41,495 nt of DNA, from positions 1 through 41,495 of IMG/VR virus record IMGVR_UViG_3300010885_079703. The stretch is one strand, 5' to 3'. This DNA comes from a virus. Under the pieces are notes generated by a model. The model was not told the origin of the DNA and searched no databases. It worked only from the letters and a program-made list of their open reading frames with translations. Made by a program: the position numbers and the translations under genes. Of the stretch, positions 34-16,573 are shown in pieces (positions within the stretch are counted from its first letter, which is position 1; each line of letters opens with the position of its first letter).

Positions 34-1500
34 ATGATTTTGTGTGACCCCTCAGCAGAAAGAGCCGTTTTGGCGGGAATCTGCAGTTTTGGTGAAGATG
101 CATATCTTGATACTGCCGATATTGTTCAACCATCAACTTTCACTATTGATAGCAACAGCATAATTTATACATGTTTAAAGACTATCTGTGAAAGAGATCA
201 TAAGCCCAGCATAGATATTCCATCTATTTTCTCGGTGGCTCAGGAGTTAAATTTTGGACATATTTTGTCTAAAAAGGAAGAGGCCCAGCATTTAAAGGCT
301 ATTCTAGATTTTCCTGTTAATCTGGAGAATGTTAGAAAGTTTGCGGCTAAAATTCGTAAGCTAGAAATAGCCAGACTTTTAAGGAAACAATTAGAGACAG
401 CTCAAGATAAAATTCTTGATATTAATGGTAGTGAACCAATAGCTTCAATTTTAGGAATAGCTGAAGATGCTATATTCAATTTCTCTTCATTACTAAGTGA
501 TACAGATAATCATCCCGTTTGTTTTGGCAAGGGTTTGGATGACTACCTAAAGCATCTTGAAGAACATAAGATTGATCAGGTTGGGGTGTCCACAGGCTTT
601 CCAATATATGATCAAGCAATTGGTGGGGGCTTGAGAAAGGGAACTGTAAATGTAATAGCTGCCAGACCCAAAACCGGTAAAACATTATTATCAGATAATA
701 TGGGTGAGTACATAGCTAATAAACTACATATTCCTGTTTTAAATATGGATACGGAAATGAATAAAGAAGATCATATCCATAGAATATTAGCAATGATGAC
801 GGAAACAGAAATCAATACCATAGAAACTGGTAAGTTTACTGAGTCTCCTGACAAGAGGACAAAAATACTACAAGCAGCAGATGCTTTAAAAGAGAGCAAG
901 TGGTTTCATAAGTCTATTGCAGGAAAACCATTTGAAGAGCAGTTGGCTGTTATGAGAAGATGGCTTTTAAAAGAGGTTGGCCTTAATGATGATGGCACAG
1001 CAAAAGAATGTGTCATATTCTATGACTATTTAAAACTTATGGATAGTGCTGGTATGAGTCAGGATTTAAAAGAGTATCAGGTACTCGGATTCATGATGAC
1101 CGCACTACATAACTTTGCTGTTAGGTATCAAATTCCAATCGTGGCATTTATACAGTTGAATAGAGACGGTATTACCAAAGAAAGCACCGACACGGCTAGT
1201 GGTTCAGATAGAATCATTTGGCTGTGTAGTAATTTCTCAATTTTTAAGCGTAAATCTGACGAAGAGATTGCAGAAGACGGACCAACAAACGGTAATAGAA
1301 AATTAGTACCCCTGATAAGTCGTCACGGTGGGGGGTTAGACGATAATGACTACATTAATTGTCATATGAAGGGGTGGTGTGCTAAAATATCAGAAGGACA
1401 AACTAGACTAGAATTACTTCACAATAACAAAAATGATAAAGACGGATTTATAGTAGATGACAACTCTAATGAACAAGAAACAGCAATTCCATTCGAATGA
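34..1500 (+). CDS. DnaB-like replicative DNA helicase
   Basis: 488 residues. This is a RecA-fold hexameric helicase that would unwind the phage replication fork. The Walker A loop is ARPKTGKT at residues 210-217 (K216, T217), and a Walker B-type strand, VIFYD, ends at D331. The later GSDRIIWLCSN segment fits the C-terminal part of the RecA core. An N-terminal helical region of about 170 residues matches the DnaB layout, and the length is normal for the family. An AAGGA element at 17-21 precedes the ATG. The 3' end overlaps the primase gene in another frame, so the two are probably translationally coupled. The C-terminus is acidic and ends AIPFE, which resembles the tip of SSB proteins. Confidence 0.9.
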   Translation: MILCDPSAERAVLAGICSFGEDAYLDTADIVQPSTFTIDSNSIIYTCLKTICERDHKPSIDIPSIFSVAQELNFGHILSKKEEAQHLKAILDFPVNLENVRKFAAKIRKLEIARLLRKQLETAQDKILDINGSEPIASILGIAEDAIFNFSSLLSDTDNHPVCFGKGLDDYLKHLEEHKIDQVGVSTGFPIYDQAIGGGLRKGTVNVIAARPKTGKTLLSDNMGEYIANKLHIPVLNMDTEMNKEDHIHRILAMMTETEINTIETGKFTESPDKRTKILQAADALKESKWFHKSIAGKPFEEQLAVMRRWLLKEVGLNDDGTAKECVIFYDYLKLMDSAGMSQDLKEYQVLGFMMTALHNFAVRYQIPIVAFIQLNRDGITKESTDTASGSDRIIWLCSNFSIFKRKSDEEIAEDGPTNGNRKLVPLISRHGGGLDDNDYINCHMKGWCAKISEGQTRLELLHNNKNDKDGFIVDDNSNEQETAIPFE

Positions 1501-2611
1501 TCAGGCAAAGCTAAAGATTGTTTGCGATGATCTTTGTGATCATATCGAAGAACTTTTGGAACACTTTGGTTTAGAATATGTTTACAGTGGTAAATTAATA
1601 TCGATGAGTTGCCCAATCCACGGGGGTGACAACAAATCTGCATTAAACTTATATCCACAAGGAGATGTATATAGGGGTAATTGGAAGTGTCGAACTCATG
1701 GTTGTGAAAAATATTTTAAGTCTTCTATCATAGGTCTTATAAGAGGCATCATCTCTAACCAAAAATACAATTGGATTAAAGATGGAGATAATAGCTGTTC
1801 TTTTCAAGAAGCAATGGCTTTCTGTCTACAGTTCCTAAATAAAGACCTATCGGATATCAAAATATCTAATGTTGACAGAAATAAAAAATCCTTTTCTAGC
1901 ACAATCAGATATATTAATCCAGAAGTTAGTAAAGAAACCACAGGAATAAGCCGCAAACAAATAAGAGCAAATCTAAGGATCCCTGCAGAATACTATATTA
2001 AAAGAGGATATTCTTCAGAAATCTTAGACAAGTACGATGTTGGCTTTTGTGATAAGCCCAACAAAGAAATGTCTAATAGAATTGTTGTGCCTATTTATGA
2101 TCATAAATATAAGCATATGGTAGGATGTTCTGGAAGAAGTATTTTTGAAAAATGTGCAGAATGCAAAGGTTTTCATGACTCTTCCGAATCCTGTCCGGAC
2201 GAAGAAAGAGCCAGATTCTTTTCTAAATGGAAACACAGTGCTTCCTTTCAGTCACAGAATCATCTATATAATATATGGTTTGCTAAAACACACATACTAG
2301 AAACATATACAGTTATTATTGTAGAAAGTCCAGGAAACGTATGGAGACTAGAAGAAGCAGGAATACACAATGCAGTAGCTATCTTTGGATCTTCACTGAG
2401 CGATAGACAAAAAATGATACTTGATGCCTCTGGGGCCATGACTATCATAACCATGATGGACAACGACGAAGCTGGCAAGAAAGCATCTGAATTAATCAGA
2501 CAAAAATGCTATAAAACCTATAATGTAAAAAACATAGAATTTCCAGCACAAGATGTGGCCGATTTATCTATAGATTACATTCAGAATAATATCCTTCCCC
2601 TAATAAAGTAA
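1457..2611 (+). CDS. DnaG-type DNA primase (CHC2 zinc finger plus TOPRIM)
   Basis: 384 residues; makes RNA primers for the helicase encoded just upstream. The N-terminal zinc-binding set is C52, H55, C78 and C83 (CPIH, then CRTHGC). The TOPRIM core has VESPG with E290 and a later MMDNDEAG with D335 and D337, the metal-binding acidic residues. A second CAEC-x-G-F-H...C cluster lies between the two domains. It is shorter than cellular DnaG (about 580 residues) and lacks an obvious C-terminal helicase-binding domain, as is usual for phage primases. The start is uncertain: ATG 1457 or in-frame ATG 1469, neither with a clear ribosome binding site. Either overlaps the helicase gene by 30-45 bases. 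Confidence 0.88.
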   Translation: MTTLMNKKQQFHSNDQAKLKIVCDDLCDHIEELLEHFGLEYVYSGKLISMSCPIHGGDNKSALNLYPQGDVYRGNWKCRTHGCEKYFKSSIIGLIRGIISNQKYNWIKDGDNSCSFQEAMAFCLQFLNKDLSDIKISNVDRNKKSFSSTIRYINPEVSKETTGISRKQIRANLRIPAEYYIKRGYSSEILDKYDVGFCDKPNKEMSNRIVVPIYDHKYKHMVGCSGRSIFEKCAECKGFHDSSESCPDEERARFFSKWKHSASFQSQNHLYNIWFAKTHILETYTVIIVESPGNVWRLEEAGIHNAVAIFGSSLSDRQKMILDASGAMTIITMMDNDEAGKKASELIRQKCYKTYNVKNIEFPAQDVADLSIDYIQNNILPLIK

Positions 2612-2615
2612 TACA

Positions 2616-3341
2616 ATGATTTTAGGAATATCTGGCAGAAAACAATCTGGAAAAAGCACAACAGGGAACTTTATTGTTTCTCTTTATCTATCTCGTCTTG
2701 GAGTATCAAAACAAGTCGATCTTGATATTGAAGGAAGAATTATTGTATCTGATTTGTTTGGGGATACTAATTATGGAGGACTATTAGATACATCGGTTAG
2801 AAAAAATGACTTTATGCTTAATAAACTATATGATGTACTAGATAGACATGTTAAAATCTATAGTTTTGCAGATCCTCTCAAACAAGATATTTGCATGAAT
2901 ATTTTAGGTTTAACATACGAACAATGTTATGGTTCTGATGAAGAGAAGAATAGGCTCACAGAATTAACTTGGCCAAATTCTACAGACAAGATGACATCAA
3001 GAGATATTATGCAGTATGTGGGGACAGACATTTTTCGTAAGATGAAGTCGGATGTTTGGGTATCTGCCACAATCAATAGGATAAGTAAGGAAAAACCGCA
3101 ACTTGCTCTTATTACAGACTGTAGATTTCCTAATGAAGTATCCAGTATCAAAGACGCTGGCGGCTATGTTATGAGGTTAACTCGTAATCCATTTCATTCT
3201 GATCATTTGAGTGAAATTATATTGGATGAACCCGGTTATGACTGGTCTAATTTTAATTACGTATGTCGCAATGACGATATGAGTATATATGATCAGTGTA
3301 CAGACATTCAAAAATTTTTACAGGAGACTCTACCATTATAG
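2616..3341 (+). CDS. Deoxynucleoside monophosphate kinase
   Basis: 241 residues. The N-terminal P-loop is GRKQSGKS at residues 7-14. Later segments (YSFADPLKQDICMNILG, a TSRDIMQYVGTDIFR helix, and LITDCRFPNEVSSIKDAGG) are characteristic of phage dNMP kinases of the T4 gp1 type, which phosphorylate dNMPs to feed replication. Such genes commonly sit in phage replication operons, as here between primase and nuclease. The long stretch after the P-loop (residues 30-75) is poorly conserved. The gene starts 4 bases after the primase stop with no strong Shine-Dalgarno, which fits translational coupling. It could in principle help supply modified nucleotides, but no nucleotide-modifying enzyme is seen in this window. 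Confidence 0.85.
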   Translation: MILGISGRKQSGKSTTGNFIVSLYLSRLGVSKQVDLDIEGRIIVSDLFGDTNYGGLLDTSVRKNDFMLNKLYDVLDRHVKIYSFADPLKQDICMNILGLTYEQCYGSDEEKNRLTELTWPNSTDKMTSRDIMQYVGTDIFRKMKSDVWVSATINRISKEKPQLALITDCRFPNEVSSIKDAGGYVMRLTRNPFHSDHLSEIILDEPGYDWSNFNYVCRNDDMSIYDQCTDIQKFLQETLPL

Positions 3342-4378
3342 TCACATACTTTAGGAGTAGCTCCTATAATACACACTCAATGTGCGAGCAACAATATTTT
3401 CTTGAATACGTTTTAGGCTATCGAGGTCCTTCTGGTCAAAAAGCTGATAAGGGGACCATCGTGCATAAGGTATTAGAAATTTTAGCAGTTATTAAAAAAG
3501 CCCAACAAGATAAATTATCGTCTATAGATGATGATGTTGTTGGTAAACTGGATGTTGATAAATATGATCTAGATACTATTACAGAAAAAGTATACAAGCA
3601 CTATTCCGAAGCAAGTCCTCACCATAAGTGGTCGCCAAAAGACTACAAAGACTGTCACGCCTGGGTGCATAAAGCTATTGAGTTTAATGGTGGTATGTTT
3701 GATCCAAGAAACAGACACATACTATGCCCCGAACAACATTTTGATATCGAAATCAAGAAACCTTGGTCGGCCTACTCTTATGATACTCCAGAAGGTAAGC
3801 TTGAAGGAAATCTTGGAATAAAGGGAACAATTGATCTCATTACTCTTGTTGATGACAATACAATAGAAATAGTTGACTGGAAAACAGGACGAAGATTAGA
3901 CTGGGCTACTGGTAAAGAAAAGACTTTAGAAAAGCTGCAGAGTGATCCACAACTAATGATATACCATTACGCTATTAGTCATTTGTATCCTCATATAAAT
4001 CATATCATTTTTTCTATCTACTTTATTAATGATGGTGGTCCATTTTCCATATGTTTTGATAAGTCTGATTTGTCCAAGACAGAAGAAATTTTACGTCAAA
4101 AATTTGAGATAGTGAAGAATACAAGAAAGCCTAGATTAAACAAAAGTTGGATGTGTACTAAATTATGTCATTTTGGAAAAACAACATTTGATAATACCCA
4201 CATAACCCCACAGATAGAGTATAGAGAAAACCAGACCTGTAACATGGGTTCTACTATGACAAAATGCGAACAAGTCAAACACGATATCGACTTGCACGGA
4301 ATGAATGTTGTGGTAGAACAGTACAAAAACCAGAATCACTCTTTTGGAAAATATAAAGCGCCAGGAAGCACAGAATGA
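3296..4378 (+). CDS. PD-(D/E)XK nuclease, RecB/Cas4-like
   Basis: Up to 360 residues counted from GTG 3296. The family hallmarks are a GTIVHKVLE helix, GTIDLI with D180, and EIVDWKTG with D194 and K196 forming the metal-binding D...D-x-K site. Cysteines near the N-terminus (SMCEQQYFLEY) and in the C-terminal third (WMCTKLC, then two more in QTCNMG and TKCEQ) suggest an iron-sulfur cluster like that of Cas4/AddB nucleases. Such enzymes process DNA ends during replication and recombination. The true start may be ATT 3335, which directly follows a strong Shine-Dalgarno and is close to where the recognisable domain begins. The stop overlaps the polymerase start as ATGA. Confidence 0.85.
   Translation: MYRHSKIFTGDSTIIVTYFRSSSYNTHSMCEQQYFLEYVLGYRGPSGQKADKGTIVHKVLEILAVIKKAQQDKLSSIDDDVVGKLDVDKYDLDTITEKVYKHYSEASPHHKWSPKDYKDCHAWVHKAIEFNGGMFDPRNRHILCPEQHFDIEIKKPWSAYSYDTPEGKLEGNLGIKGTIDLITLVDDNTIEIVDWKTGRRLDWATGKEKTLEKLQSDPQLMIYHYAISHLYPHINHIIFSIYFINDGGPFSICFDKSDLSKTEEILRQKFEIVKNTRKPRLNKSWMCTKLCHFGKTTFDNTHITPQIEYRENQTCNMGSTMTKCEQVKHDIDLHGMNVVVEQYKNQNHSFGKYKAPGSTE
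3322..3326 (+). promoter_or_regulatory. Shine-Dalgarno AGGAG for the downstream nuclease
   Basis: CAGGAG lies at the end of the dNMP kinase gene. No ATG, GTG or TTG follows at a usable distance in the nuclease frame. An in-frame ATT at 3335 is 8 bases downstream and an ATA at 3338 is 11. The only conventional in-frame start, GTG 3296, lies upstream of this site and has no ribosome binding site of its own. Confidence 0.5.
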
Positions 4379-6237
4379 AAAATTATGTCCCCCTTCATGC
4401 ACACTCTCACTATAGTTTATTGGATGGTCTAAGTAAGCCAGCTAAAATGGCCGACAGATGCTCTAAAATTGGAGTTAAGTCTTGTGCCATTACTGATCAT
4501 GGTACGATTTCTGGAAATGTTCAGTTTTTTCAATCAATGAAAGCTAAGGGTATCAAGCCTATTCTCGGCTGTGAATTATATATTAGCAATAGCGATTCAA
4601 CAATAAAGACAAAGGAAAATAACGATTTAAGTCATTTTTTGATTTTAGCCAAAAATAAAGATGGATGGCTACAACTAATTAATCTTATATCAGAAACTAA
4701 TAAACCAGAAAACTTTTATCATAAGCCGAGAATAAGTTTTGATAAATTACAAAAATACATCACTGGTAATTTTATAGGTTTTTCTGGTCATTTAGGATCG
4801 ACCATAGCAGATGCTATGCAAGCAGATCCAGATAATGCTATGAAGATAGGAACAGAACATGTTTCATACATGAAGAGTATCTTTGGTGACGACTATTTCT
4901 TAGAAGCCCAACTTATGGATCAGGAACAAACTCCTGAGCAAGTAGAACTAACTAGTATTATTAGAAGGCTTGGACAAACAACAAATACCAAAGTCATATG
5001 CACACCAGACGCTCACTACTGCGAAAAAGAGGACTCTGTTGATCAAAGAATATTGTTGTGCAATAATTTAAAAACAACACTAACAGACATAAACAAGAGA
5101 CTTCTTCATAACGAAAAAGTTCCAATGAGTTGTTTTTTCCAGTCGGATAAATTTCATATCTTATCCCCAGAAGAAATATCAGAGATCCACACTGAACAAG
5201 AAATAGAGAATACAAATTATGTAGATAGTTTATGTGAAGATTATGATATCCTTCACAAGCCTATGCTTCCTCCGTTTAAGTGTCCCAATAATGGAAACCC
5301 AGACGAATATCTTAGGGAGCTATGCAGACAGGGATGGAAGCAAAAAATAGCCAATAAAGTAGATAAAGAACAACAACAGCAATATGTTGACCGTATAAAA
5401 TACGAACTAGATATTTTACAGGGTGCTGACTTGTCCAGTTATTTCTTGATAGTCGGAGACATTGTTAATAAGGTACGAGCTGAGTCTTGGTTGCCTGGGC
5501 CCGGCAGAGGCTCTGCGGCAGGGTGTCTGGTCTCTTATTTAGTTGGTATAACGTCCATAGACCCCATCCGGTACAATTTAATTTTTGAAAGGTTCTATAA
5601 CTCTGGAAGAAATACGAAAGACAGAATTTCCATGCCAGATATTGATGTAGACGTTCCCATTAATAAGCGTGAATATATCATAGAATATATTAAGAATAAA
5701 TACGGCCATAATAAAGTATCTCAAATGATCACATTCAATACCATGAAAGGCAGGGGTGCTTTAAAAGAAGTATTAAGAGTATATGGAAATATATCTTTTG
5801 AAGAAATGAACCGTATTACAAAATTCATTCCAGATGAAGCAAAGATAGCAGACGAACTCCAAGAAATGAAGGAGGATACCGGCGAAGCATCAATCATAAG
5901 ATGGGCACTAGAAAATAATGTTGACAAACTCAAGGAATGGTGCTATATTGATGATGACAACAACCTCTCAGGCCCGCTTGCAAAAAGATTTGAGCAGGCC
6001 ATACGTTTAGAAGGAACAAAGTCTAATCAGTCCAAACATGCTGCCGGTGTAGTTATTAGTAGCGAAAATTTAGATTCTGTGTGTCCTATGGTTTATGATT
6101 CTAAAAATAAACATCTCATAGCCGGAATGGAAATGCAAGATCTAGAGTCTCTTGGAATAATTAAATTTGACATATTAGGTATTGCCATGTTGGATAAAAT
6201 TATGAACATATCTGAATCTTTAAAGTATGGAGAATAA
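4375..6237 (+). CDS. DNA polymerase III alpha (DnaE), N-terminal piece: PHP plus palm
   Basis: 620 residues; the first part of a replicative C-family DNA polymerase. The PHP domain starts at once (LHAHSHYSLLDG with H8 and H10) and keeps TDHG (D41, H42), E67, H139 and DAHY (D212, H214), so its metal site looks intact. The palm carries GPGRGSAAG (from G375) and PDIDVD with D422 and D424. The third catalytic aspartate is D599 in IKFDILG. All three catalytic aspartates are therefore in this piece. It stops about 20 residues later, just before the segment linking palm and fingers. The rest is encoded separately at 7098-8720. No intein blocks are visible. It starts inside the nuclease stop as ATGA, with AGGAAG upstream. 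Confidence 0.92.
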   Translation: MKNYVPLHAHSHYSLLDGLSKPAKMADRCSKIGVKSCAITDHGTISGNVQFFQSMKAKGIKPILGCELYISNSDSTIKTKENNDLSHFLILAKNKDGWLQLINLISETNKPENFYHKPRISFDKLQKYITGNFIGFSGHLGSTIADAMQADPDNAMKIGTEHVSYMKSIFGDDYFLEAQLMDQEQTPEQVELTSIIRRLGQTTNTKVICTPDAHYCEKEDSVDQRILLCNNLKTTLTDINKRLLHNEKVPMSCFFQSDKFHILSPEEISEIHTEQEIENTNYVDSLCEDYDILHKPMLPPFKCPNNGNPDEYLRELCRQGWKQKIANKVDKEQQQQYVDRIKYELDILQGADLSSYFLIVGDIVNKVRAESWLPGPGRGSAAGCLVSYLVGITSIDPIRYNLIFERFYNSGRNTKDRISMPDIDVDVPINKREYIIEYIKNKYGHNKVSQMITFNTMKGRGALKEVLRVYGNISFEEMNRITKFIPDEAKIADELQEMKEDTGEASIIRWALENNVDKLKEWCYIDDDNNLSGPLAKRFEQAIRLEGTKSNQSKHAAGVVISSENLDSVCPMVYDSKNKHLIAGMEMQDLESLGIIKFDILGIAMLDKIMNISESLKYGE

Positions 6238-6239
6238 CC

Positions 6240-6413
6240 ATGAATAAAACAATGAAAGATGTCGCAATAGGTGAGAGGTTTACTGTCGCTGGTGTCGAGT
6301 ACATTAAGACGAATGACGTAAGAATAAGCTGCTGCAAAGTTATTAACTGCGAAGTAGTAGGCGATCCAAATCAAAAAAACTTTTTCTCCCCGGATATTGA
6401 AGTAAATGGCTAA
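6240..6413 (+). CDS. Small conserved-looking phage protein between the polymerase pieces
   Basis: 57 residues, beginning MNKTMKDVAIGERFTVAGVE and ending SPDIEVNG. A good Shine-Dalgarno (GGAGA at 6229-6233) lies 6 bases upstream of the ATG. The gene begins 2 bases after the polymerase N-terminal piece and overlaps the exonuclease start by 8 bases, so it is very likely translated. It contains a CC pair and a third Cys (SCCKVINCEVV). The pattern, a short beta-rich protein with vGerF...GveYiK and a terminal acidic stretch, recalls small phage proteins of unknown role. I cannot assign a function. Its position suggests it belongs to the replisome block. Confidence 0.7.
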   Translation: MNKTMKDVAIGERFTVAGVEYIKTNDVRISCCKVINCEVVGDPNQKNFFSPDIEVNG

Positions 6414-7113
6414 TTTTCAAAAACTGTGCGTGTTCGATTTAGAAACCGATGGGGTTAATCCAGAGAAATGCAGTCCAGTACAAATAGCTGCTATCATGGT
6501 AGATCCTATAAAACTAGAAGTAATTAAGGATTCTGAGTTTAACATTAACTTAAAACCAGAACCACTACAAGACAATCCGAGTTATGACTATGGAGACAGT
6601 GACGTTTTAGACTTTCATGCTAAAGTTAGAAATAGCACCAAAGGACAAATACTCAAAGACTGGTCTTCGTATCAGCAACAAGATAATGGATGGAAAGCAT
6701 TCGTATCATACCTTGATATGTATCATACTAGATCAGAAAGAAAGTCTTGTTTCAGTGCCCCTATTGCTGCAGGATATAATATCAATAGGTTTGACTTAAA
6801 GATTACAGAAAGATTAAGTGTCAAATATAACAACCTTAATAAAGAGGGGAAGTCTTCCTTATTTTATCCGAGAGATGTTATTGATCTGATGAATATTATG
6901 TTTTACTGGTTTGAGGGAGGAAACGAACTCAAGAACTATACCCTTGATCATGTAAGAGACTATTTTGGATTAAGTAAGGAAGGGTCCCACGATGCTCTAA
7001 AAGACGTTAGAGACACAGCAGATCTATTAATTAGATTCATGAAGCTTCACAGGAATCTTTCTTCTAAGGTAAATTTTAAAGGATCTTTTGGTAAAACATG
7101 TCAGAATTCTTAA
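6406..7113 (+). CDS. DEDDh 3'-5' exonuclease (DnaQ-like, proofreading candidate)
   Basis: 235 residues. All exonuclease motifs are present: Exo I FDLETDG with D11 and E13, Exo II YNINRFD with D130, and Exo III HDALKD with H195 and D200. The spacing makes it DEDDh, as in DnaQ/epsilon. It lies between the two halves of a C-family polymerase and overlaps the second half by 16 bases, which strongly suggests it is the proofreading subunit of that polymerase. It is close in length to bacterial epsilon. No clear clamp-binding peptide is seen at its Lys/Gly-rich C-terminus. The start ATG overlaps the preceding 57-residue gene, and translation is probably coupled. Confidence 0.88.
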   Translation: MANFQKLCVFDLETDGVNPEKCSPVQIAAIMVDPIKLEVIKDSEFNINLKPEPLQDNPSYDYGDSDVLDFHAKVRNSTKGQILKDWSSYQQQDNGWKAFVSYLDMYHTRSERKSCFSAPIAAGYNINRFDLKITERLSVKYNNLNKEGKSSLFYPRDVIDLMNIMFYWFEGGNELKNYTLDHVRDYFGLSKEGSHDALKDVRDTADLLIRFMKLHRNLSSKVNFKGSFGKTCQNS

Positions 7114-8720
7114 CTTTTGAGTGTGGCTGCAGATTTCCAGTATCCACACTAGATAATGGTGGCAAGTCCATCAAATTTGATCCCAATATCGAATCCATGA
7201 ATCTGGACTGTTCAAAAACCTGGGATTTAATATCTAGTGGAAATACGAAGGGTTGTTTTCAGCTAGAGTCTAGACTAGGCCAAGCTATGGCCAAAAAACT
7301 AAAGCCTGAAAATATAGAGCAATTATCCGCCCTGATTAGTATTCTTAGGCCAGGATGTTTGGAAGCTATACGTGATGGAAAAAGCGTTTCTAACCATTAT
7401 ATAGATAAGAAGAATGGACAAGAAAGTGTTGACTATTTTCATTCCGGTCTTGAGACAGCGCTAAAGTCAACATATGGAGAGATGATCTATCAAGAACAAG
7501 CAATGGAAATAGCTCAAACCATAGCAGGTTTTGACCTTAAAGAAGCAGACATGCTGAGAAAAGCCATTGGAAAAAAGAAGCCAGAAGAGATGGCAAAAGT
7601 AAAGTCTAAATTCTTAGAAGGGTCCAAACAAACGAAAATTGTTTCTGAGGATCAAGCTGAAGAAATTTTCGGATGGATTGAGAAGAGTCAAAGATACTCA
7701 TTCAATAAATCCCATGCTGTATCATATGCTATTAATGGATACTTATCTGCTTATGCAAAGGCTCACTTTCCAAGAATATTTTTTGCTTCTTATTTAAGAT
7801 TTGCCAAGGACAAAATTGATCCTCAACAGGAAATCAAAGAGCTTATTAGAAATGCTAATGAGATGGACATAAATGTATATATTGCAGACTTTAGAAATCT
7901 TAATGAGTTTTTTCTGATAAAGGATAAAAACATATATTTTGGCTTAACTGATATTAAAGGGGTCGGTGCTTCTGTATTTAAGAAAATGGTAGAGCTTACA
8001 ACAAATATTGACGTTGGATCATTAACTTGGCCCCAAATGTGTGCATCAATATTAATGAATATTAATTCTACAGCATGTAAAGCTCTTATTAGTAGTGGAG
8101 CATTTGACTACTTTAAGAAGAGTAGAACATCCATGTTATTTGAATATGAGATATTATCAGGTCTAACAAAAAAAGAACTTGAGCAACTTATTTCAATGAG
8201 TAATAAAGACACATCAATAAAAGATGGATTAAATAGCTTATACGATAATGGCAATAAAATTAATAAAAATCGTAAGCAAAACATCCATCAGCTAATTAAT
8301 CTAATAAACAAACCCCCATATTCTTTGATAGATAAGATTGAATGGTTATCTGATAGCGAAAGTCAGTTACTTGGAGCCTCTATTACCTGTTCCAAGCTAG
8401 ACACATACGACATGAGTATGACCAACATGGACTGTAAAACATACAAGAATACTCTGTTAGATAAAAACATTGTTATGGCTGGAGAAGTTGTAAATATTAA
8501 TGTCGTTAAGACAAAAAAGGGAAAGAATCCTGGCCAAGAAATGGCTTTTATTACAATAGAAGATGGCGGTGGAATCTTGGATTCTGTCGTCCTATTTCCA
8601 GAAAAATGGGCTGAATATAAGCACCATTTATTTGAAAGGAACATTTTGATCTTTGTAGGAAATAAAACAAAAAACAAGGATGCTTTCGTCGTGGAAAAAT
8701 GTTTTATGCCAAAGTCTTGA
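7098..8720 (+). CDS. DNA polymerase III alpha (DnaE), C-terminal piece: fingers, HhH and OB
   Basis: 540 residues that continue the alpha subunit begun at 4375; together the pieces total 1160 residues, about the size of intact bacterial DnaE. Alignable motifs include GCFQLESR, ILRPGCLEAIRDG, IYQEQAMEIAQTIAGF, GKKKPEEMAK and SFNKSHAVSYAINGY (fingers), then a helix-hairpin-helix (LTDIKGVGASVFKKM) and a C-terminal OB fold (NIVMAGEVVNINVVKTKKGK onward). HQLINLI between HhH and OB is a candidate clamp-binding site. The first 28 residues or so, including FECGCRF, have no counterpart in cellular DnaE and may help the pieces assemble. The start overlaps the exonuclease gene. The stop codon overlaps the -35 box of the ssb promoter. 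Confidence 0.92.
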   Translation: MSEFLTFECGCRFPVSTLDNGGKSIKFDPNIESMNLDCSKTWDLISSGNTKGCFQLESRLGQAMAKKLKPENIEQLSALISILRPGCLEAIRDGKSVSNHYIDKKNGQESVDYFHSGLETALKSTYGEMIYQEQAMEIAQTIAGFDLKEADMLRKAIGKKKPEEMAKVKSKFLEGSKQTKIVSEDQAEEIFGWIEKSQRYSFNKSHAVSYAINGYLSAYAKAHFPRIFFASYLRFAKDKIDPQQEIKELIRNANEMDINVYIADFRNLNEFFLIKDKNIYFGLTDIKGVGASVFKKMVELTTNIDVGSLTWPQMCASILMNINSTACKALISSGAFDYFKKSRTSMLFEYEILSGLTKKELEQLISMSNKDTSIKDGLNSLYDNGNKINKNRKQNIHQLINLINKPPYSLIDKIEWLSDSESQLLGASITCSKLDTYDMSMTNMDCKTYKNTLLDKNIVMAGEVVNINVVKTKKGKNPGQEMAFITIEDGGGILDSVVLFPEKWAEYKHHLFERNILIFVGNKTKNKDAFVVEKCFMPKS

Positions 8721-8780: not shown

Positions 8781-8788
8781 ACTGATTG

Positions 8789-9166
8789 ATGAATATTACT
8801 ATACTAAGGGGTAATTTGGCTCGTGATCCAGAATTGAGAGTAGTTAGTACCGGAGGTAAGCAAACTTCAGTAGTTAATTTTACTGTTGCGGTATCTAGGG
8901 AATATACCAAGGCCAACGGGGAAAAGGATAAGGTTGCATCTTTTATCAACTGCGAAGCATGGGATACTGGTGCTGAGATTATTGGATCTTCTTTTAAGAA
9001 GGGCGACCTAGTATTGGTCGAAGGCTCTTTAAGGAATGATTCATGGGAAAAGGATGGAGTAAAACACAGTAGTCTAAAGGTTAGGGTAAATAACTTTTCT
9101 AAGATTACAAAGCTAAGTAAGCCATCAAAGGCCACATCAGAGGAAACAGAAACGGTTAGCTTCTGA
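8789..9166 (+). CDS. ssb: Single-stranded DNA-binding protein
   Basis: 125 residues from ATG 8789. It has the classic bacterial SSB OB fold: ITILRGNLARDPELR, VVNFTVAVSREY, FINCEAWD, GDLVLVEGSLRNDSWEKDG and LKVRVNNF. The protein coats single-stranded DNA at the fork. The C-terminal tail is short and ends EETETVSF: acidic with a terminal Phe, a weaker version of the DDDIPF tip used to recruit partners. The gene has its own promoter and ribosome binding site upstream and a strong terminator hairpin downstream, so it is probably a separate, highly expressed unit rather than part of the replication operon. Confidence 0.93.
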   Translation: MNITILRGNLARDPELRVVSTGGKQTSVVNFTVAVSREYTKANGEKDKVASFINCEAWDTGAEIIGSSFKKGDLVLVEGSLRNDSWEKDGVKHSSLKVRVNNFSKITKLSKPSKATSEETETVSF

Positions 9167-9251: not shown

Positions 9252-10925
9252 ATGGAAAAGCTAAAAGTTTTAATGTGTTCAGAAGCCAGTTTTCTTAGCT
9301 CTGGTTTCTCTATCTATGCTAAAGAAATCCTGTCAAGATTACACTCCACAGGAAAATATGATATTGCAGAATTTGCATCTTATGGATCGGTCAATGATCC
9401 CAAAGACACCCAAATAAAATGGAAGTATTATGCAAATGCTGTTTCAGATAAAGACCCAAGACATAAGGAATATACTTCCAGAACAGATAATCAGTTTGGC
9501 AGGTGGAGGTTTGAGAAGGTTCTGTTGGATTTTAAGCCAGATGTTGTAATAGATGTTAGAGACTATTGGATGAGTGCATATCAAGCACTATCTCCTCTGA
9601 GAAAACATTTCCATTGGATTTTGATGCCAACAGTTGACTCTGAACCACAACAAGAATCATGGCTAGACACATATTTGGGTGCTGATGCTATTTTTACTTA
9701 TTCTGATTGGGGTGCTCAGGTTTTAAAGAGACAAACATCTAATAAGGTAAACTACATTGACACCACAGCACCAGGAGTCGATCTCGAAACATTTAAGCCA
9801 CTAGAACAAGAGTATAAGTCCCAGATAAGAGAAATAATGGGAATAGATCAAAATGCAATAGTTATTGGTTCTGTAATGAGAAACCAAAAAAGAAAGCTAA
9901 TACCAGATCTGTTCTATTCTTTTAGAAAACTACTGGATCTTTGTGAAAATCAATATCCAGAGATTGGGAAAAATCTTTACTTTTATTTGCATACTAGTTA
10001 TCCAGATGCTGGGTGGGACATACCAAACCTTCTTAAAGAACACAGAATAGCCAATAAGGTTCTGTTCACCTACTTCTGTAAGAATTGTAATAATATATCT
10101 TCTAAGAGGTTTTGCGGAGCACAGTCAGTATGTAAAAAATGCGGAGAAAAATCTTGCGTTTTTCCTTCTGTGGTATCAGGAGTGTCTTCGGAACAACTGT
10201 CTTACATCTATAACTGTTTTGATATGTATGTGCAGTATGCTATTTGCGAAGGTGCTGGTATGCCACAAATAGAAGCTTCTGCCTGTGGAGTTCCTGTATT
10301 TACTGTGGAATATAGCGCAATGATGGACGTTATAGATAAATTAAAAGCAACAGGCATCAAAGTTAGTCAAAGATTCAAAGAGCTAGAGACAAAAGCTATT
10401 AGAGTATATCCGGATAACGATCATTTGGTTAAAGAGCTCATCAAATGGATCAATACCTCAAAAGATGTACAGAAAAAGAAAAAAGAAGAAACAAGAACCC
10501 TAACAGAGAAATATTATTGTTGGGATAATAGCGCTAAAAAATGGGAAGAGTATCTAGATAAGTTGGATTCATCAGGATATAGGTCAGACTGGAGTAAGCC
10601 ACCAACCATACTGCAAAACATACCAGAAGACATAAGTGAACAACAGATCAATAGTCAGTACTTTGATTTGCTAATGTATGTTTGCAATAACAATTTACAA
10701 GACCATAATATGGTATCTTCCATGTTATTCTTAGATGCTCTCAAAGACCTAGACTACGGATTTACACAGAGTGGAACACAGATATCCAGCTATAATCTGC
10801 CTGATATTCTCAATTTGATTAGAACATACATCAATAATCAAAATAACTCAGAAAAGGCTAGATCAGATAATCTAAAGTTTAATGATGACTTTATACAGTA
10901 CGCTCATATGAAGGGATCAACATGA
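9252..10925 (+). CDS. GT-B glycosyltransferase (GT4-like) with inserted zinc ribbon
   Basis: 557 residues. The N-terminal Rossmann-like half begins KVLMCSEASFLSSGFSIYAK, the glycine-rich acceptor loop position, and continues with VIDVRDYW and IFTYSDWG. The C-terminal half has IVIGSVMRNQKRK, YFYLHTSYPDAGWDI and the GT4 E-x7-E motif (E333 and E341 in EGAGMPQIEASACGVPVF), which binds the nucleotide-sugar phosphates. Between these, residues 276-302 carry six cysteines (C276, C279, C288, C294, C297, C302), a zinc-ribbon-like insertion that is unusual for GT4 enzymes. A C-terminal extension of about 120 residues is unassigned. It heads a coupled operon of similar genes. The substrate is unknown; phage glycosyltransferases can modify virion proteins, DNA or host glycans. 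Confidence 0.82.
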   Translation: MEKLKVLMCSEASFLSSGFSIYAKEILSRLHSTGKYDIAEFASYGSVNDPKDTQIKWKYYANAVSDKDPRHKEYTSRTDNQFGRWRFEKVLLDFKPDVVIDVRDYWMSAYQALSPLRKHFHWILMPTVDSEPQQESWLDTYLGADAIFTYSDWGAQVLKRQTSNKVNYIDTTAPGVDLETFKPLEQEYKSQIREIMGIDQNAIVIGSVMRNQKRKLIPDLFYSFRKLLDLCENQYPEIGKNLYFYLHTSYPDAGWDIPNLLKEHRIANKVLFTYFCKNCNNISSKRFCGAQSVCKKCGEKSCVFPSVVSGVSSEQLSYIYNCFDMYVQYAICEGAGMPQIEASACGVPVFTVEYSAMMDVIDKLKATGIKVSQRFKELETKAIRVYPDNDHLVKELIKWINTSKDVQKKKKEETRTLTEKYYCWDNSAKKWEEYLDKLDSSGYRSDWSKPPTILQNIPEDISEQQINSQYFDLLMYVCNNNLQDHNMVSSMLFLDALKDLDYGFTQSGTQISSYNLPDILNLIRTYINNQNNSEKARSDNLKFNDDFIQYAHMKGST

Positions 10926-11929
10926 ACATTTTGTACATAGGTCCTTATAGAGAAGATACAGAACAGGGATATATTTCTAGACAATATCTTGAAGATATAT
11001 TGGGGAACTATAATGTCACTTGTCGCCCAATATTCACTTCCAACAGCACTGTACAAAAAATCCAAGAAAATATAACAGATGCTGAAAAACGACTACAAAA
11101 TAATTACGACTGTTGTATACAGCATATGACACTAAATATGTTAACATACTCTGGATATTTTAAACATCTTGTGGCTATCCCGGTACTTCCTATCTCTAAT
11201 AAAATAAACAGCTTATCTAATATAGACACCCTAAATAGATTCAATAAGATCATTATTAATAACGATAAAGAAGAATCACTCCTAGTAAGATCAGGAATTA
11301 AAAGCGAAATAAAAAACATAGATTGTCCAGTAGATATAAAAATGGCTGAGACAATAGATAAAAAATTTAATTTCGGTCTGCACAACAACAATCATAAATT
11401 CTATTTCATTGGAAACTACAAAAAAGACATGGAAGCTATTCATAAGATTCTATTAGCTTTTTATGTGTCTTTTAGATGCGATATAACATATAGTTTGATT
11501 ATGTTGCTAGAGGGTGATCAACAAGACAAAGAGCATTTACAAAAAACTTCCACAGACATTAAAAGTCAATTAAACATTATCTCATATAGAAACCCACTTA
11601 ATGAACTCTATATATTTGAGCCAATGTCAGAATATGATAAACTAATACTCCATAATTCCTGTGACATATTTTTGAATCTTCAATACGGGGGATCAAAGAT
11701 CCAAAAACACTATGCTGAATTTTTTGGTAACTTTATCATAGATAATGAGAATACAGACACGGTCGATATTCCGTATGGGAATAATCCATCAGGATATGTG
11801 ACAGAAGATACTATCGAGTCAATCACGACCAATAGCATAATAAATAGAATGAGACATTGCGCTAAAGAAAAAAATATCAAAACCCCAAATCAAAAATCCT
11901 ACAATAAAACACTCTCTCAATTCATATGA
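10922..11929 (+). CDS. Degenerate GT-B glycosyltransferase-like protein
   Basis: 335 residues, joined to its upstream neighbour by an ATGA overlap. MNILYIGPYREDTEQGYISR resembles the first strand and loop of a GT-B fold. FYFIGNYKKDMEAIHKILLA resembles the start of the second domain, and ILHNSCDIFLNLQYGG resembles the donor-site region. The E-x7-E pair of GT4 is not present where expected (GSKIQKHYAEFFGN), so catalysis by the standard mechanism is doubtful. It may be a partner or regulatory subunit of the enzyme at 9252, or a divergent transferase. The family call rests on pattern only. Confidence 0.55.
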   Translation: MNILYIGPYREDTEQGYISRQYLEDILGNYNVTCRPIFTSNSTVQKIQENITDAEKRLQNNYDCCIQHMTLNMLTYSGYFKHLVAIPVLPISNKINSLSNIDTLNRFNKIIINNDKEESLLVRSGIKSEIKNIDCPVDIKMAETIDKKFNFGLHNNNHKFYFIGNYKKDMEAIHKILLAFYVSFRCDITYSLIMLLEGDQQDKEHLQKTSTDIKSQLNIISYRNPLNELYIFEPMSEYDKLILHNSCDIFLNLQYGGSKIQKHYAEFFGNFIIDNENTDTVDIPYGNNPSGYVTEDTIESITTNSIINRMRHCAKEKNIKTPNQKSYNKTLSQFI

Positions 11930-12798
11930 ACAAAGCAGTATCTAACATTATCGAAACGACTATCAGAAGCAGCACAAAGCAAACAATGAATGTGCTTTAC
12001 CATGAAGGTTCATCCTCAATCTTGCCCCCACTACTATCTCATAGCAAAAAGCTTAACTTTGTAAGAAGTTCAAATATCACTAATGAGACACTAGACATCG
12101 ATTATGCTGCTTATGTTTGTCATGATTATCTAAATATGGAAAACATATACAAACAGATTATTAATCCAATGCATATGAAAAGTTTAGTTTGTTTTAATGA
12201 TACCCCATATAAAATGCTGAAAAAAGAAGACTTATTCATACTACAAACTAATTTAGCAAAAAGTAAAAAATTAGCATTTTGTCCATATGTTTATGATATA
12301 TGGAAACCCTTTTTTCCAGATATGGTTTTCATGACCCCAGGAATTCCAGACTTTCAAATTTCTGAATTAGAGAATAGAAAATCAATAGTGGTAGTTTCTT
12401 GTTCTAATAAAAAACAAGCACGTTCTTTGCATTCTCAAATAATGGATGTTATGAAAGATGTTGGATTGTTAGTTGACTTTAATTATAATGCTGTTAGTTT
12501 GATGAACGTATTTAATGAATATAAGATGGCTATTGTTTTAGATAATTCTTTATCTTGTTTACTAGCTATGGCTGCAAATTGTGCTGTAATAAGTCCAATA
12601 CCTTTTTATGATCAAATCATAACGTATAATGATAGTAGCACACTTAATCAGGCTATAAATGCTGGGTTTGAAATGACAGAAAATAAAGAGACTGTAGCTT
12701 TAGGGAACAAAATAAGAGACAGTCATCAATACGACCCATTTGACAACAACCTTTATAACTTTATGCTAAATATAACAAGGGAGCCATTTTTACTATGA
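11926..12798 (+). CDS. Glycosyltransferase-like protein, divergent
   Basis: 290 residues, starting in the ATGA overlap with its neighbour. Alternating hydrophobic strands and loops (TMNVLYHEG, YAAYVCHDYLNMENIYKQ, SLVCFND, IVVVSCSNKKQ, MAIVLDNSLSCLLAMAANCAVISP) suggest a GT-B-type double Rossmann arrangement. SLSCLLAMAANCAVISPIPF sits where glycosyltransferases have the donor-binding segment (EAmAcGvPVI), but the key glutamate is missing. It is probably a diverged duplicate within the cassette. Function is not established. Confidence 0.45.
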   Translation: MNKAVSNIIETTIRSSTKQTMNVLYHEGSSSILPPLLSHSKKLNFVRSSNITNETLDIDYAAYVCHDYLNMENIYKQIINPMHMKSLVCFNDTPYKMLKKEDLFILQTNLAKSKKLAFCPYVYDIWKPFFPDMVFMTPGIPDFQISELENRKSIVVVSCSNKKQARSLHSQIMDVMKDVGLLVDFNYNAVSLMNVFNEYKMAIVLDNSLSCLLAMAANCAVISPIPFYDQIITYNDSSTLNQAINAGFEMTENKETVALGNKIRDSHQYDPFDNNLYNFMLNITREPFLL

Positions 12799-13214
12799 AC
12801 AGAAACATCAATATATCTGATAGTGTAGATTCTAAAAATTTAGATGGCTTTAACACAGTTAATATAGATAAGCTAGACGATGTTGTAAATCACTCTGCTG
12901 ATGTGATATACTATGGATCATTTAATAATGTCGGAGATCAGAATCTGATACCCACATTAGGTAATATGCTAGAAAAAATAAGGGTTGGAGGTACTTTGGT
13001 CGTTAAAATACTCAATGCAAGAGTACTTTCCAAACTATACTTTGAAAATAGCATCAGTTCTGCAGAATATCTACAATCAATAAAGCAAGCCAATACTCTG
13101 CTAACCCCAGAAGATATCAACAACAATATCGACCATAGTCAGTTCGTATTAGGAAAAATAGAATATCAAAATTACCACACTCTAGTATCTATTGTTAGGA
13201 AAGATATAGTATGA
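12795..13214 (+). CDS. Truncated SAM-methyltransferase-like protein
   Basis: 139 residues, overlapping the neighbours on both sides by ATGA. FNTVNIDKLDDVVNHSADVIYYGS, then LGNMLEKIRVGGTLVVKILN, match the back half of a class I methyltransferase (the segment usually reading aDeIya...l...RvLkpGG.lvi). The glycine-rich SAM-binding motif I that should come first is absent; the protein begins about where motif II would be. It may be a vestigial or regulatory methyltransferase, or may work together with another subunit. No catalytic claim can be made. Confidence 0.45.
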   Translation: MNRNINISDSVDSKNLDGFNTVNIDKLDDVVNHSADVIYYGSFNNVGDQNLIPTLGNMLEKIRVGGTLVVKILNARVLSKLYFENSISSAEYLQSIKQANTLLTPEDINNNIDHSQFVLGKIEYQNYHTLVSIVRKDIV

Positions 13215-13966
13215 GACAAAACACAAAATGCGAAACTTGTTTGTTTGCGGATACTCATGACAGCACCAAACCCTGCCAACACGGTATTCTAGATCATATT
13301 AAGGACATTAAAACTCTTGAGGTGGTTGATGATTATTATGTAATACAGGACTATTCTTGTAAGATGGGTTTTTCAAAGAAAGCTTTTGAATCAAATTCTG
13401 ACAAATATTCTTTAGATGCCATAAAACAAGAAATATTAAAAAATGCATGTATTAAATACTATTTAGTCATGGACATATCAGACTCTTCTGAATCAGAAAT
13501 AGAGAATATCTGTAAAAATATTAATGCTTTACAAATACCTCCAAAATATATTTCTTTCTTGATTAAGAGTGAAACGAATAAAAAAATGATTAAATATCTG
13601 AACCAGGGCAAAATTACCAATACCGAATGGAAAGCTCACGGATTTTTAGCAGAGATGGAGCATATTCAAGCTATTAATGTGGCCTTAGATACCAATCTTA
13701 AAAAGAACAATTCTCAACTATTATTATTCTATGATAAAAAAGACATAAACGATCTAGATAATGATATTAATGAGATTAATACAATCATAAATGTTGAACA
13801 AAGACCCTTTCACATACTGAGAAAAAATGAGACAAAAGAAGATAAAGTTGAAGGACTATTAATGTCGTTTGAAGGATATTCTTTCCTAAAGGGTAGGTAC
13901 TATGATATCATGGAAGAAATCAAAAATATGGAAGATATGATCATACTAAAATATGGAAAAAATTAA
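13211..13966 (+). CDS. Protein with N-terminal Cys cluster and glycosyltransferase-2-like C-terminal region
   Basis: 251 residues. The N-terminus holds four cysteines (KCETCLFAD, then PCQHGI and YSCKMGF), a likely zinc or iron-sulfur knuckle of about 55 residues. The remainder has a GT-A-like rhythm: YYLVMDISDSSESEIENICK, then IQAINVALDTNLKKNNSQLLLFYDKKD, then PFHILRK and LLMSFEGYSFLKG. The INVAL...LLLFYDKKD stretch resembles the segment preceding the DXD motif of family-2 glycosyltransferases, but a clear DXD is not seen. It is part of the coupled cassette. Function is not established. Confidence 0.45.
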   Translation: MRQNTKCETCLFADTHDSTKPCQHGILDHIKDIKTLEVVDDYYVIQDYSCKMGFSKKAFESNSDKYSLDAIKQEILKNACIKYYLVMDISDSSESEIENICKNINALQIPPKYISFLIKSETNKKMIKYLNQGKITNTEWKAHGFLAEMEHIQAINVALDTNLKKNNSQLLLFYDKKDINDLDNDINEINTIINVEQRPFHILRKNETKEDKVEGLLMSFEGYSFLKGRYYDIMEEIKNMEDMIILKYGKN

Positions 13967-14624
13967 TGCCATTATTGTTGCTAGTGAAATTACAAGGGGA
14001 ATGAAATCGATTGGACCGAAGTCCTTGCTAAAGATTAAAAAAACACTATCAATAGTAGAATACCAAATACTAGAGCTTAAAAAACATTATCCTGGAATAA
14101 ATGTAACGGTATCTATCGGATTTGAATCAGAAAAAATGATCAAGGTATTAGAAAAATATAAAGTCAATATACTCCATAATGAAGACTTTGTTTCTAGTAA
14201 TCAAGTCAAAGCGATATTAGACTATGTAAAAGAGTATGATGCAACTAATCTGCTAGTTATTCATAGTGGGGTTTTATTTAAACAAAAGTTCGGAATTCTA
14301 AATAATAGATCGCAATCTTGTTTATATATGCTGGACAAGCACAAGGCAAATTTTAATATAGGATGTAATGGATTATCAGAAATGTCGTATCTGTTTTTTG
14401 ATCTTCCAGAAAAATGGTCTGAGTGTGTTTTCTTTGATCAGCAGACTATCAGGAACATTATTGATCTGTCCAAAAAAAGAGAAATAAAACAACTATATAC
14501 TTTTGAACTAATTAATATGCTTATAGAAGTTGGTCAGCACTTTTCTCGAACAACCATAAAAAAGAACAACATTATGAAAGTATCAAACATTAAAGATTTA
14601 CCCAAAGCTAAGGTGTTCATATAA
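13953..14624 (+). CDS. Nucleotidyltransferase-like (GT-A fold) protein, altered active site
   Basis: 223 residues. The N-terminus, INAIIVASEITRGMKSIGPK followed by SLL, clearly resembles sugar-nucleotidyltransferases (AIILAAGxGtRM...PKaLl), and later segments (VTVSIGFESEKM, LHNEDFVSSNQVKAIL, NLLVIHSGVLF) follow the same fold. The glycine loop is disturbed. The position that normally holds the metal-binding aspartate (GD before the second half) reads HSG. The enzyme could have changed specificity or lost activity. A role in making an activated sugar for the neighbouring transferases is inferred from context. It overlaps its upstream neighbour by 14 bases. Confidence 0.55.
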   Translation: MEKINAIIVASEITRGMKSIGPKSLLKIKKTLSIVEYQILELKKHYPGINVTVSIGFESEKMIKVLEKYKVNILHNEDFVSSNQVKAILDYVKEYDATNLLVIHSGVLFKQKFGILNNRSQSCLYMLDKHKANFNIGCNGLSEMSYLFFDLPEKWSECVFFDQQTIRNIIDLSKKREIKQLYTFELINMLIEVGQHFSRTTIKKNNIMKVSNIKDLPKAKVFI

Positions 14625-15340: not shown

Positions 15341-15798
15341 ATAATACTAAAAAAGATTATGGATTTTTGCTGATTAAAATAGATCAGAGATACAAAGGGT
15401 TAATAAACTCAATTTCTGATATTGCTAATCATAGACCATATGATCAAACCTGCATATTTAATAGTAATCATATTGATTTGCCAGTAGACGATCTTCCTAT
15501 TTTACATCTTAATGAGATGAAATATTTTTTTGGTAATCTATTTGTTTTTGATATTGCTGGTTTAATTTTAAGTCAAGAATGTCCAAATATACACAATAGA
15601 TATTATTATGCAGTAGATGCTCCGTGGATCGACAATACCAAAGCTTTCTATAGAGAGTGGAAAAATCTTTTTGAACAAGATAATCTAGAAATAATTGCCC
15701 AGAATAAACATGTTGCAGATATATATGAGATATGTTGGAAAAAACCCATACTAGTAACAGAAGAGTTTTCATATGACACAATATCAAAAATCATTTAA
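15337..15798 (+). CDS. Hypothetical protein
   Basis: 153 residues, starting with an ATGA overlap and ending inside the next gene. It is rich in aromatic residues and acidic (RYYYAVDAPWIDNTKAFYRE, IAQNKHVADIYEICWKKPIL). The last part resembles a GT-B hinge sentence (residue x says the sugar-binding protein name, then a following strand), which suggests a short relic of the same family as its neighbours. No motif supports an enzymatic call. Confidence 0.35.
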   Translation: MNNTKKDYGFLLIKIDQRYKGLINSISDIANHRPYDQTCIFNSNHIDLPVDDLPILHLNEMKYFFGNLFVFDIAGLILSQECPNIHNRYYYAVDAPWIDNTKAFYREWKNLFEQDNLEIIAQNKHVADIYEICWKKPILVTEEFSYDTISKII

Positions 15799-16573
15799 TA
15801 AGTTGGATATCTCAGAACAAAAAACTGTCCTTTACGATATGTATATCAAGCAAAAGAAAAGTTTTGCCGATATTGCTTTAGAGTTAGATACATATCCTAA
15901 TAAGATTAGAAGAGCACTACAGTCTCTTGAAATACCCATTAGAGATAAGTCTGACGCTCAGAAGAATGCTTTAAAATCGGGAAAACACAAACATCCAACA
16001 AAGGGCCAAAATAGGTCTGAAGAAATTAAGAATAAGATAGGTATGGGCGTTATGAAGTCGTGGGATTCTCTCGATGAAGCTGCCCTGAATAAAAGAAAAC
16101 TAAAAGCAAAAGAGGCTTGGGAAAACTTAGACGAAGACGCTAAGCAAAATATGATTAAACTAGCAAATGATGCTGTTAGAGCAACATCAAAAACAGGATC
16201 TAAACTAGAAAAATTCATATTTAATAAATTGCTAGAGGACGGATACAAAGTTGATTTTCATAAAGAGCAAAGTCTACTAACTACCAAGTTGCAAATCGAC
16301 CTGTTTCTTCCTACCATGAATGTAGCTATCGAGATTGACGGACCATCTCACTTTCTTCCAGTATGGGGTGATGATGCTCTTCAAAGGAATATTAATTATG
16401 ATCAGAAGAAAGAAGGATTAATTTTAGGAAAAGGTTTGAAGCTAATCAGAATCAAACAAACCAAAGATTTTTCAAAGTCTAGATCAAATAATACATATGC
16501 TAATCTTAAGAATCTGCTAGAGAATATTTCAAATCAAACTAACCAAGAACGTAACTTTACAATAGAGGACTAA
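15773..16573 (+). CDS. HTH plus PD-(D/E)XK / RAP-DUF559-like endonuclease
   Basis: 266 residues. An N-terminal helix-turn-helix (KTVLYDMYIKQKKSFADIAL, then ELDTYPNKIRRALQSL) is followed by a NUMOD3-like basic linker (GKHKHPTKGQNRSEEIKNKI). The C-terminal domain has QIDLFLP with D176 and VAIEIDGPSHF with E187 and D189, then LKLIRIKQTKDF. This is the Vsr/DUF559/RAP version of the PD-(D/E)XK fold. The order HTH, NUMOD3, nuclease is typical of free-standing homing endonucleases in phages, though a role in DNA processing for the phage itself is also possible. It overlaps the preceding gene by 26 bases, and GAAGAG upstream may serve as ribosome binding site. Confidence 0.72.
   Translation: MTQYQKSFNKLDISEQKTVLYDMYIKQKKSFADIALELDTYPNKIRRALQSLEIPIRDKSDAQKNALKSGKHKHPTKGQNRSEEIKNKIGMGVMKSWDSLDEAALNKRKLKAKEAWENLDEDAKQNMIKLANDAVRATSKTGSKLEKFIFNKLLEDGYKVDFHKEQSLLTTKLQIDLFLPTMNVAIEIDGPSHFLPVWGDDALQRNINYDQKKEGLILGKGLKLIRIKQTKDFSKSRSNNTYANLKNLLENISNQTNQERNFTIED

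Follow-up and report, generated by a model that had tools for sequence, protein, structure and literature searches.

Locus and gene layout

This analysis concerns a C-family DNA polymerase gene, dnaE, that is divided into two genes in the IMG/VR virus record IMGVR_UViG_3300010885_079703. The entire record, a linear fragment of 41,495 bases, is referred to here as the window. A preliminary description of the sequence placed a dnaE split over two genes at 4375-8720, with an exonuclease gene inside the split, and the coordinates and the Pfam and PHROG domains agree with this. The following features make up the split.

4375..6237, plus strand: DnaE-N, 620 residues; PHP, palm and thumb; catalytic D422, D424 and D599; C-terminal end ...KFDILGIAMLDKIMNISESLKYGE
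6240..6413, plus strand: S, a 57-residue open reading frame (ORF) in the split; conserved SCC..N motif; position and sequence conserved
6406..7113, plus strand: X, a DEDDh 3'-5' exonuclease in the split, probable proofreading subunit; RNase_T; phrog_192
7098..8720, plus strand: DnaE-C, 540 residues; fingers, HhH and OB region
7098..7217, plus strand: N-terminal extension of DnaE-C; three invariant cysteines (C9 and C11 in CGCxF, and C38); predicted beta-hairpin

Exactly 860 bases separate the two pieces, as had been described, and they hold the two genes S and X. The DnaE-N gene stops at 6237 and S starts at 6240, while S overlaps X by 8 nucleotides and X overlaps DnaE-C by 16. These overlapping or near-touching genes would fit coupled translation. 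S had no Pfam or PHROG match and is not a constant part of the split, as unrelated small ORFs take its place in sister groups (e.g. L180 and L354; related loci are cited by number).

Domains and breakpoint of the two halves

DnaE-N matched the Pfam families PHP (E = 8.5e-33) and DNA_pol3_alpha (2.6e-73) as well as PHROG 405, DNA polymerase (3.5e-160). DnaE-C matched DNA_pol3_finger (4e-46) and HHH_6 (3.7e-08), with a sub-threshold OB match and no matched C-terminal tau-binding region. The KFDILG motif begins at residue 597 of DnaE-N, which makes D599 the third catalytic aspartate, as proposed earlier. D422, D424 and D599 were invariant across 51 diverse sequences. When the halves were aligned to solved structures, DnaE-N reached approximately residue 626 of Taq alpha, and DnaE-C began at residue 585 of E. 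coli alpha (Taq 644). Therefore, the break falls in the linker between palm and fingers, and it lies upstream of the CFQLES segment, where it had been placed before.

The idea that all catalysis lies in one piece was correct for the metal-binding aspartates, which are in DnaE-N. It was too strong, however, since the fingers motif LRKAIGKKK, which aligns to LRRAMGKKK of E. coli, is in DnaE-C. Both chains should thus be needed for catalysis, and the known structure of polymerase III (Pol III) suggests that a working active site would have to be built from the two together.

Single-chain AlphaFold2 models had a predicted local distance difference test score (pLDDT) of 92.6 for DnaE-N and 89.9 for DnaE-C. 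The best Foldseek matches of both halves were all DnaE, with a TMq of up to 0.77 for DnaE-N. A palm with three aspartates, Pol III-type fingers and a PHP domain with its ligands, which characterize a C-family, DnaE-type Pol III alpha, are all present. The window encodes this full polymerase as two proteins of 620 and 540 residues. Replicative Pol III alpha usually consists of a single polypeptide, but here at least two ORFs were found in each of the 171 distinct loci described below.

Conservation of the split

Related loci were collected through IMG/VR searches with DnaE-N, with DnaE-C, with an alignment and then with members of increasing distance, plus one GTDB scan. This yielded 171 sequence-distinct loci holding both halves. 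None of them was fused, DnaE-N preceded DnaE-C in every one (171/171), and X was placed between the halves in 170, the exception being L429. In a tree of 47 taxa, the 29 split-clade rows formed a monophyletic group (100/100) that excluded the unsplit DnaE of phages and bacteria, though the backbone of this tree has long branches and open forks. The median ratio of nonsynonymous to synonymous substitution rates (dN/dS) was 0.033 for DnaE-N, 0.034 for DnaE-C, 0.025 for X and 0.11 for S. The split is old and has become fixed throughout a large group of uncultured aquatic phages.

A sequencing or assembly break, or a pseudogene, would also leave a divided gene, but only the metagenomic origin of the sequences would speak for such an error. 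The 171 distinct loci, which come from many samples, all show this arrangement with no fused copy, dN/dS is about 0.03, and the catalytic residues are intact. These findings show that the split did not arise by chance or during assembly and that the copy is not decaying, and we reject this explanation with near certainty. The preliminary description had likewise argued against a sequencing break. It named uninterrupted relatives beside a decaying copy as evidence that would count against its proposal; none of the 171 loci has an uninterrupted gene, and purifying selection acts on each of the four genes. It also asked whether the breakpoint recurs in other phages. The breakpoint is universal in the clade and is also found in Rossellomorea phage phiT1, where it apparently arose independently.

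The collection of phage isolates contained no close relative of the window polymerase, the best identity being approximately 32-34%. A search with the C half of phiT1 returned three distant loci only, one of which was L429. This nearest outgroup has the same break and a CxC...C start of its C half. Its gap holds a 110-residue ORF, an RNase HII-like ORF and a zinc-ribbon-like ORF, all named from reading the sequence and not from a family search, and has no DEDDh gene.

The clade contigs L177-L180 were binned with one alphaproteobacterial, one Chitinophagia and two Flavobacteriales metagenome-assembled genomes. This is a weak hint at Bacteroidota hosts and may be binning noise.

Polymerases and replication genes

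Twelve related records of 152-244 kilobases each contained one pol3_alpha and one fingers domain. In one long record, an intein divides the fingers domain, which was therefore matched in two stretches. A search that did not extend to the X and Y families found neither PolA nor PolB in these 12 records. No A-, B- or C-family polymerase other than the split DnaE was detected in the long records, which is a strong though not final result. DNA_pol3_beta_3 found no beta clamp in the same 12 records, and use of a host clamp is only a guess.

The split genes of the window stand among other replication genes. Those upstream of DnaE-N were assigned with Pfam and PHROG searches.

34-1500, plus strand: DnaB-type helicase
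1457-2611, plus strand: Toprim primase
2616-3341, plus strand: deoxynucleoside monophosphate (dNMP) kinase
3296-4378, plus strand: PD-(D/E)XK nuclease
8786..9166, plus strand: single-stranded DNA-binding protein (SSB), directly 3' of DnaE-C in the replication cluster; Pfam SSB, 3.7e-25

Alternatively, the split polymerase might serve in repair or in an accessory role while a different polymerase replicates the genome, as has been proposed for the minimal split Pol III alpha of the group 2.2 jumbo phages. A split Pol III alpha has been published for jumbo phages that carry PolB (PMC7824862), and the long records are not certified as complete, both of which would agree with an accessory role. 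However, PolA and PolB are absent from the 12 records, the genes lie within a helicase-primase-polymerase-SSB cluster, and the PHP, HhH and OB domains have been retained. An accessory role is thus quite improbable, and replication of the phage genome by the split DnaE is the favored interpretation.

Elsewhere in the window, a run of genes at 9252-14624 opens with a phage glycosyltransferase (phrog_2170) and continues with uncharacterized ORFs. The structural gene region encodes long Thr/Pro-rich repeat proteins (PTPTPT...) and a GGP collagen-like repeat at 17973-20135, 20477-21085 and 38620-40602 (minus strand).

The exonuclease between the halves

X matched the Pfam family RNase_T (3.3e-10) and phrog_192, 'DNA polymerase exonuclease subunit' (3.9e-20). 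Its residues D11, E13, D130, H195 and D200 are invariant and provide the DxE, the second aspartate and the H..D of a DEDDh motif. X is a probable epsilon-like proofreader of the split polymerase, its gene position being what points to binding.

X could instead be a passenger, such as a recombination nuclease, with the PHP domain as the proofreader. The columns of the PHP histidine ligands are 82-100% conserved in the window-type set, and L429 has the same split without a DEDDh gene in the gap, which would suit a passenger. This is countered by the presence of X between DnaE-N and DnaE-C in 170 of the 171 loci, by its invariant DEDDh residues and by the name of its PHROG family. In addition, 11 of 18 sister sequences have lost the PHP metal ligands while X stays, suggesting that X can replace PHP and fitting a role of X as the proofreader. 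A passenger role is therefore considered unlikely.

Among the sister-group loci, DnaE-N proteins of approximately 525 residues without the PHP metal-binding histidines, alongside a retained DEDDh exonuclease, were found in L276, L279, L287, L294, L308, L315, L317, L328 and their relatives. A different order was seen at L430:2373-6557, where a degenerate PHP-like ORF is followed by a DEDDh-like exonuclease and then by a fused palm-fingers polymerase, which puts the exonuclease between PHP and palm.

A three-cysteine extension at the broken linker

DnaE-C of the window clade starts with a new segment, (F/Y)xCGCxF...C..TWdLI, in which three cysteines are invariant. The segment was modeled as a small beta-hairpin with predicted strands at 4-6, 12-17 and 23-25. 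The third cysteine is present in 45/45 CGC-type sequences and the CGC pair in 44/45, as the CxC of L429 aligns slightly shifted. All three cysteines are absent from the sister-group sequences (18/18) and from every fused DnaE examined. That the cysteines occur all together or not at all suggests a metal site. In most members, the hairpin is the new N-terminus of DnaE-C. It probably binds metal and would cap or staple the broken linker; such a staple is plausible. The three-cysteine hairpin, the age of the split and the published precedents discussed below go beyond the preliminary description.

Inteins, introns and endonucleases

No intein sequence was found at the palm-fingers junction in 86 distinct N termini or 77 distinct C termini, in keeping with the absence of intein blocks noted previously, and the inteins of relatives are at other positions. 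Split-intein sequence at the junctions was the other finding that the preliminary description had named as counting against its proposal. At the gathering threshold, no Rfam intron matched the window, and the gap gave chance-level matches only. Rfam introns were also not found in nine related or comparison loci.

These results bear on the possibility that an intein, or RNA splicing in trans or in cis, joins the halves into one final chain, as in cyanobacterial DnaE. Such joining has some backing from the same genes of relatives. Split inteins are found at GRG^SAAG in the N piece of L036, L048 and L068, with an endonuclease-like ORF between the intein halves, and at FNK^SHA in the C piece of L095, with a LAGLIDADG ORF between the halves. 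L159 has a contiguous intein at RPG^CLEA. In L036, L048, L068 and L095, DnaE is made from three ORFs, two of which are presumably joined by trans-splicing. At the palm-fingers break itself, however, the N and C ends lack intein blocks, no intron was detected, and the gap codes for conserved proteins under purifying selection. Covalent joining of the window halves is thus very improbable, and two separate chains are the preferred interpretation.

Breaks of other kinds were also seen. A second, non-intein break occurs just before the catalytic PDIDVD motif in L010, L053, L055, L061, L067, L069, L070, L072 and L177, with a LAGLIDADG ORF in the gap. The second fragment of this L010-type break carries a conserved non-intein extension of approximately 95 residues, and DnaE consists of three chains. 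HNH-endonuclease-like ORFs lie inside the palm-fingers gap in L144 and L152, and dnaE of the isolated phage KLEB27-3 is broken near CFQLES with an HNH gene between the pieces. Isolated phages, too, have dnaE breaks at three recurring sites, between PHP and palm (CoolCookie and vB_BpsS-140), before PDID (Jayan and phiST) and between palm and fingers (phiT1). Split inteins and homing endonucleases repeatedly invading these dnaE genes are the likely cause of such fractures. For the palm-fingers split, a homing endonuclease or similar mobile element would have broken the gene where a boundary between domains tolerates it. Later this element would have been lost or replaced, with other genes settling in the gap. 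A mobile-element origin of this kind is most likely.

The window also has a free-standing ORF at 15773-16573 with a Vsr-like or homing-endonuclease look. Its PHROG matches were HNH and homing endonucleases, and it had no Pfam match.

Comparison with known split polymerases

The split DnaE of cyanobacteria relies on an intein, located close to FNKSH in the fingers, to join its pieces. It shares the division of dnaE into two genes with the window polymerase, which has no intein and a different breakpoint. FNKSHA is intact at residue 202 of the C piece and the break lies upstream of CFQLES, so that the earlier distinction from the cyanobacterial site is borne out. In 2009, Dassa et al. reportedly described fractured genes that carry both split inteins and homing endonucleases. 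The corresponding order (N-extein-IntN, endonuclease ORF, IntC-C-extein) is present inside dnaE of L036, L048, L068 and L095. In contrast, no member has an intein at the palm-fingers split.

A precedent for a two-chain polymerase comes from gp43A and gp43B of the Aeromonas phages 25 and 44RR, likewise a two-chain phage replicative polymerase from neighboring genes and linked to homing endonuclease insertion. According to a T4 review, the two proteins of the T4-like phage 25 are active and purify together; the review also reports full function for a split NrdA (PMC2988022). That polymerase belongs to family B, has another breakpoint and has an endonuclease or an untranslated spacer in the gap, whereas the one studied here belongs to family C and encloses a conserved exonuclease. 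The jumbo phages of group 2.2 also have a C-family homologue as two phage proteins, a minimal Pol III alpha encoded by distant genes in PolB-carrying genomes (Iyer et al. 2021; PMC7824862). The window form, in contrast, is complete from PHP to OB and encoded by adjacent genes, and no PolB was found in the 12 long records.

The bacterial DnaE with epsilon and PolC (PMC3919608) have the same domains and a DEDDh exonuclease partner. However, their alpha is one chain, and the exonuclease belongs to a separate subunit, lies within PHP (PolC) or is fused N-terminally (some Bacteroidetes), whereas here it is encoded between the palm and fingers genes. The only split forms mentioned in a survey of bacterial Pol III alpha are intein-split cyanobacterial genes and frameshifted fragments (PMC3919608).

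The genes gp20/gp19/gp18 of phiT1 (PV767480) have the same palm-fingers linker break with a small ORF in between (573 + 49 + 469 residues). The phiT1 proteins are only approximately 32% and 29% identical to those of the window and have neither the CGC hairpin nor an exonuclease in the gap. A shared origin of the phiT1 break and the window clade was rejected by the approximately unbiased (AU) test, with p values of 0.013 when L429 was included and 0.0001 when it was excluded. The palm-fingers boundary was apparently broken at least twice, with phiT1 independent, subject to the caveats of long branches.

A full-text literature search, with most subscription papers outside its reach, found no description of a full-length, exonuclease-enclosing, lineage-fixed split DnaE. 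Split phage polymerases are already known as a kind, and this full-length, exonuclease-enclosing form is a new version.

A proposed two-chain replicase and its significance

In the mechanism we propose, DnaE-N and DnaE-C would fold separately and then associate non-covalently, as the preliminary description had expected, through the old palm-fingers interface. This association would close the active site to give one active alpha-like enzyme, and the two-chain enzyme would then recruit X as an epsilon-like proofreader. We infer, with high confidence, that the replicative C-family polymerase of this large aquatic phage lineage is an obligate two-chain replicase. A more elaborate proposal adds a three-cysteine metal hairpin that evolved for this purpose at the linker and the exonuclease as a co-encoded third core subunit, giving a natural Pol III core of several chains that differs from that of bacteria. 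This is possible but tentative.

Several observations weigh against these proposals. None of the 12 long records is certified as a complete genome, and a further polymerase could have gone unnoticed. The structural support consists of single-chain predictions, and the case for assembly is a computational one. No fourth metal ligand co-varying with the three cysteines was found in DnaE-N, DnaE-C or X. A well-populated sister group stays split without any of these cysteines and, therefore, the hairpin is not required. Proofreading could lie in the PHP domain, given its conserved metal ligands in the window clade. Finally, the initial cause of the break is not visible.

By every computed test, the split polymerase is real, old and functional, and the best explanation is that the halves very probably assemble into one two-chain replicase. 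An old and fixed break between palm and fingers means that these modules can evolve as separate replicase subunits, and the split halves are natural fragments for studying how the active site closes. Within one gene, the clade presents a graded series of breaks that are joined by inteins, occupied by endonucleases, or long stabilized with an acquired hairpin. How damage by a mobile element leads to a stable enzyme of several subunits can thus be tested directly.
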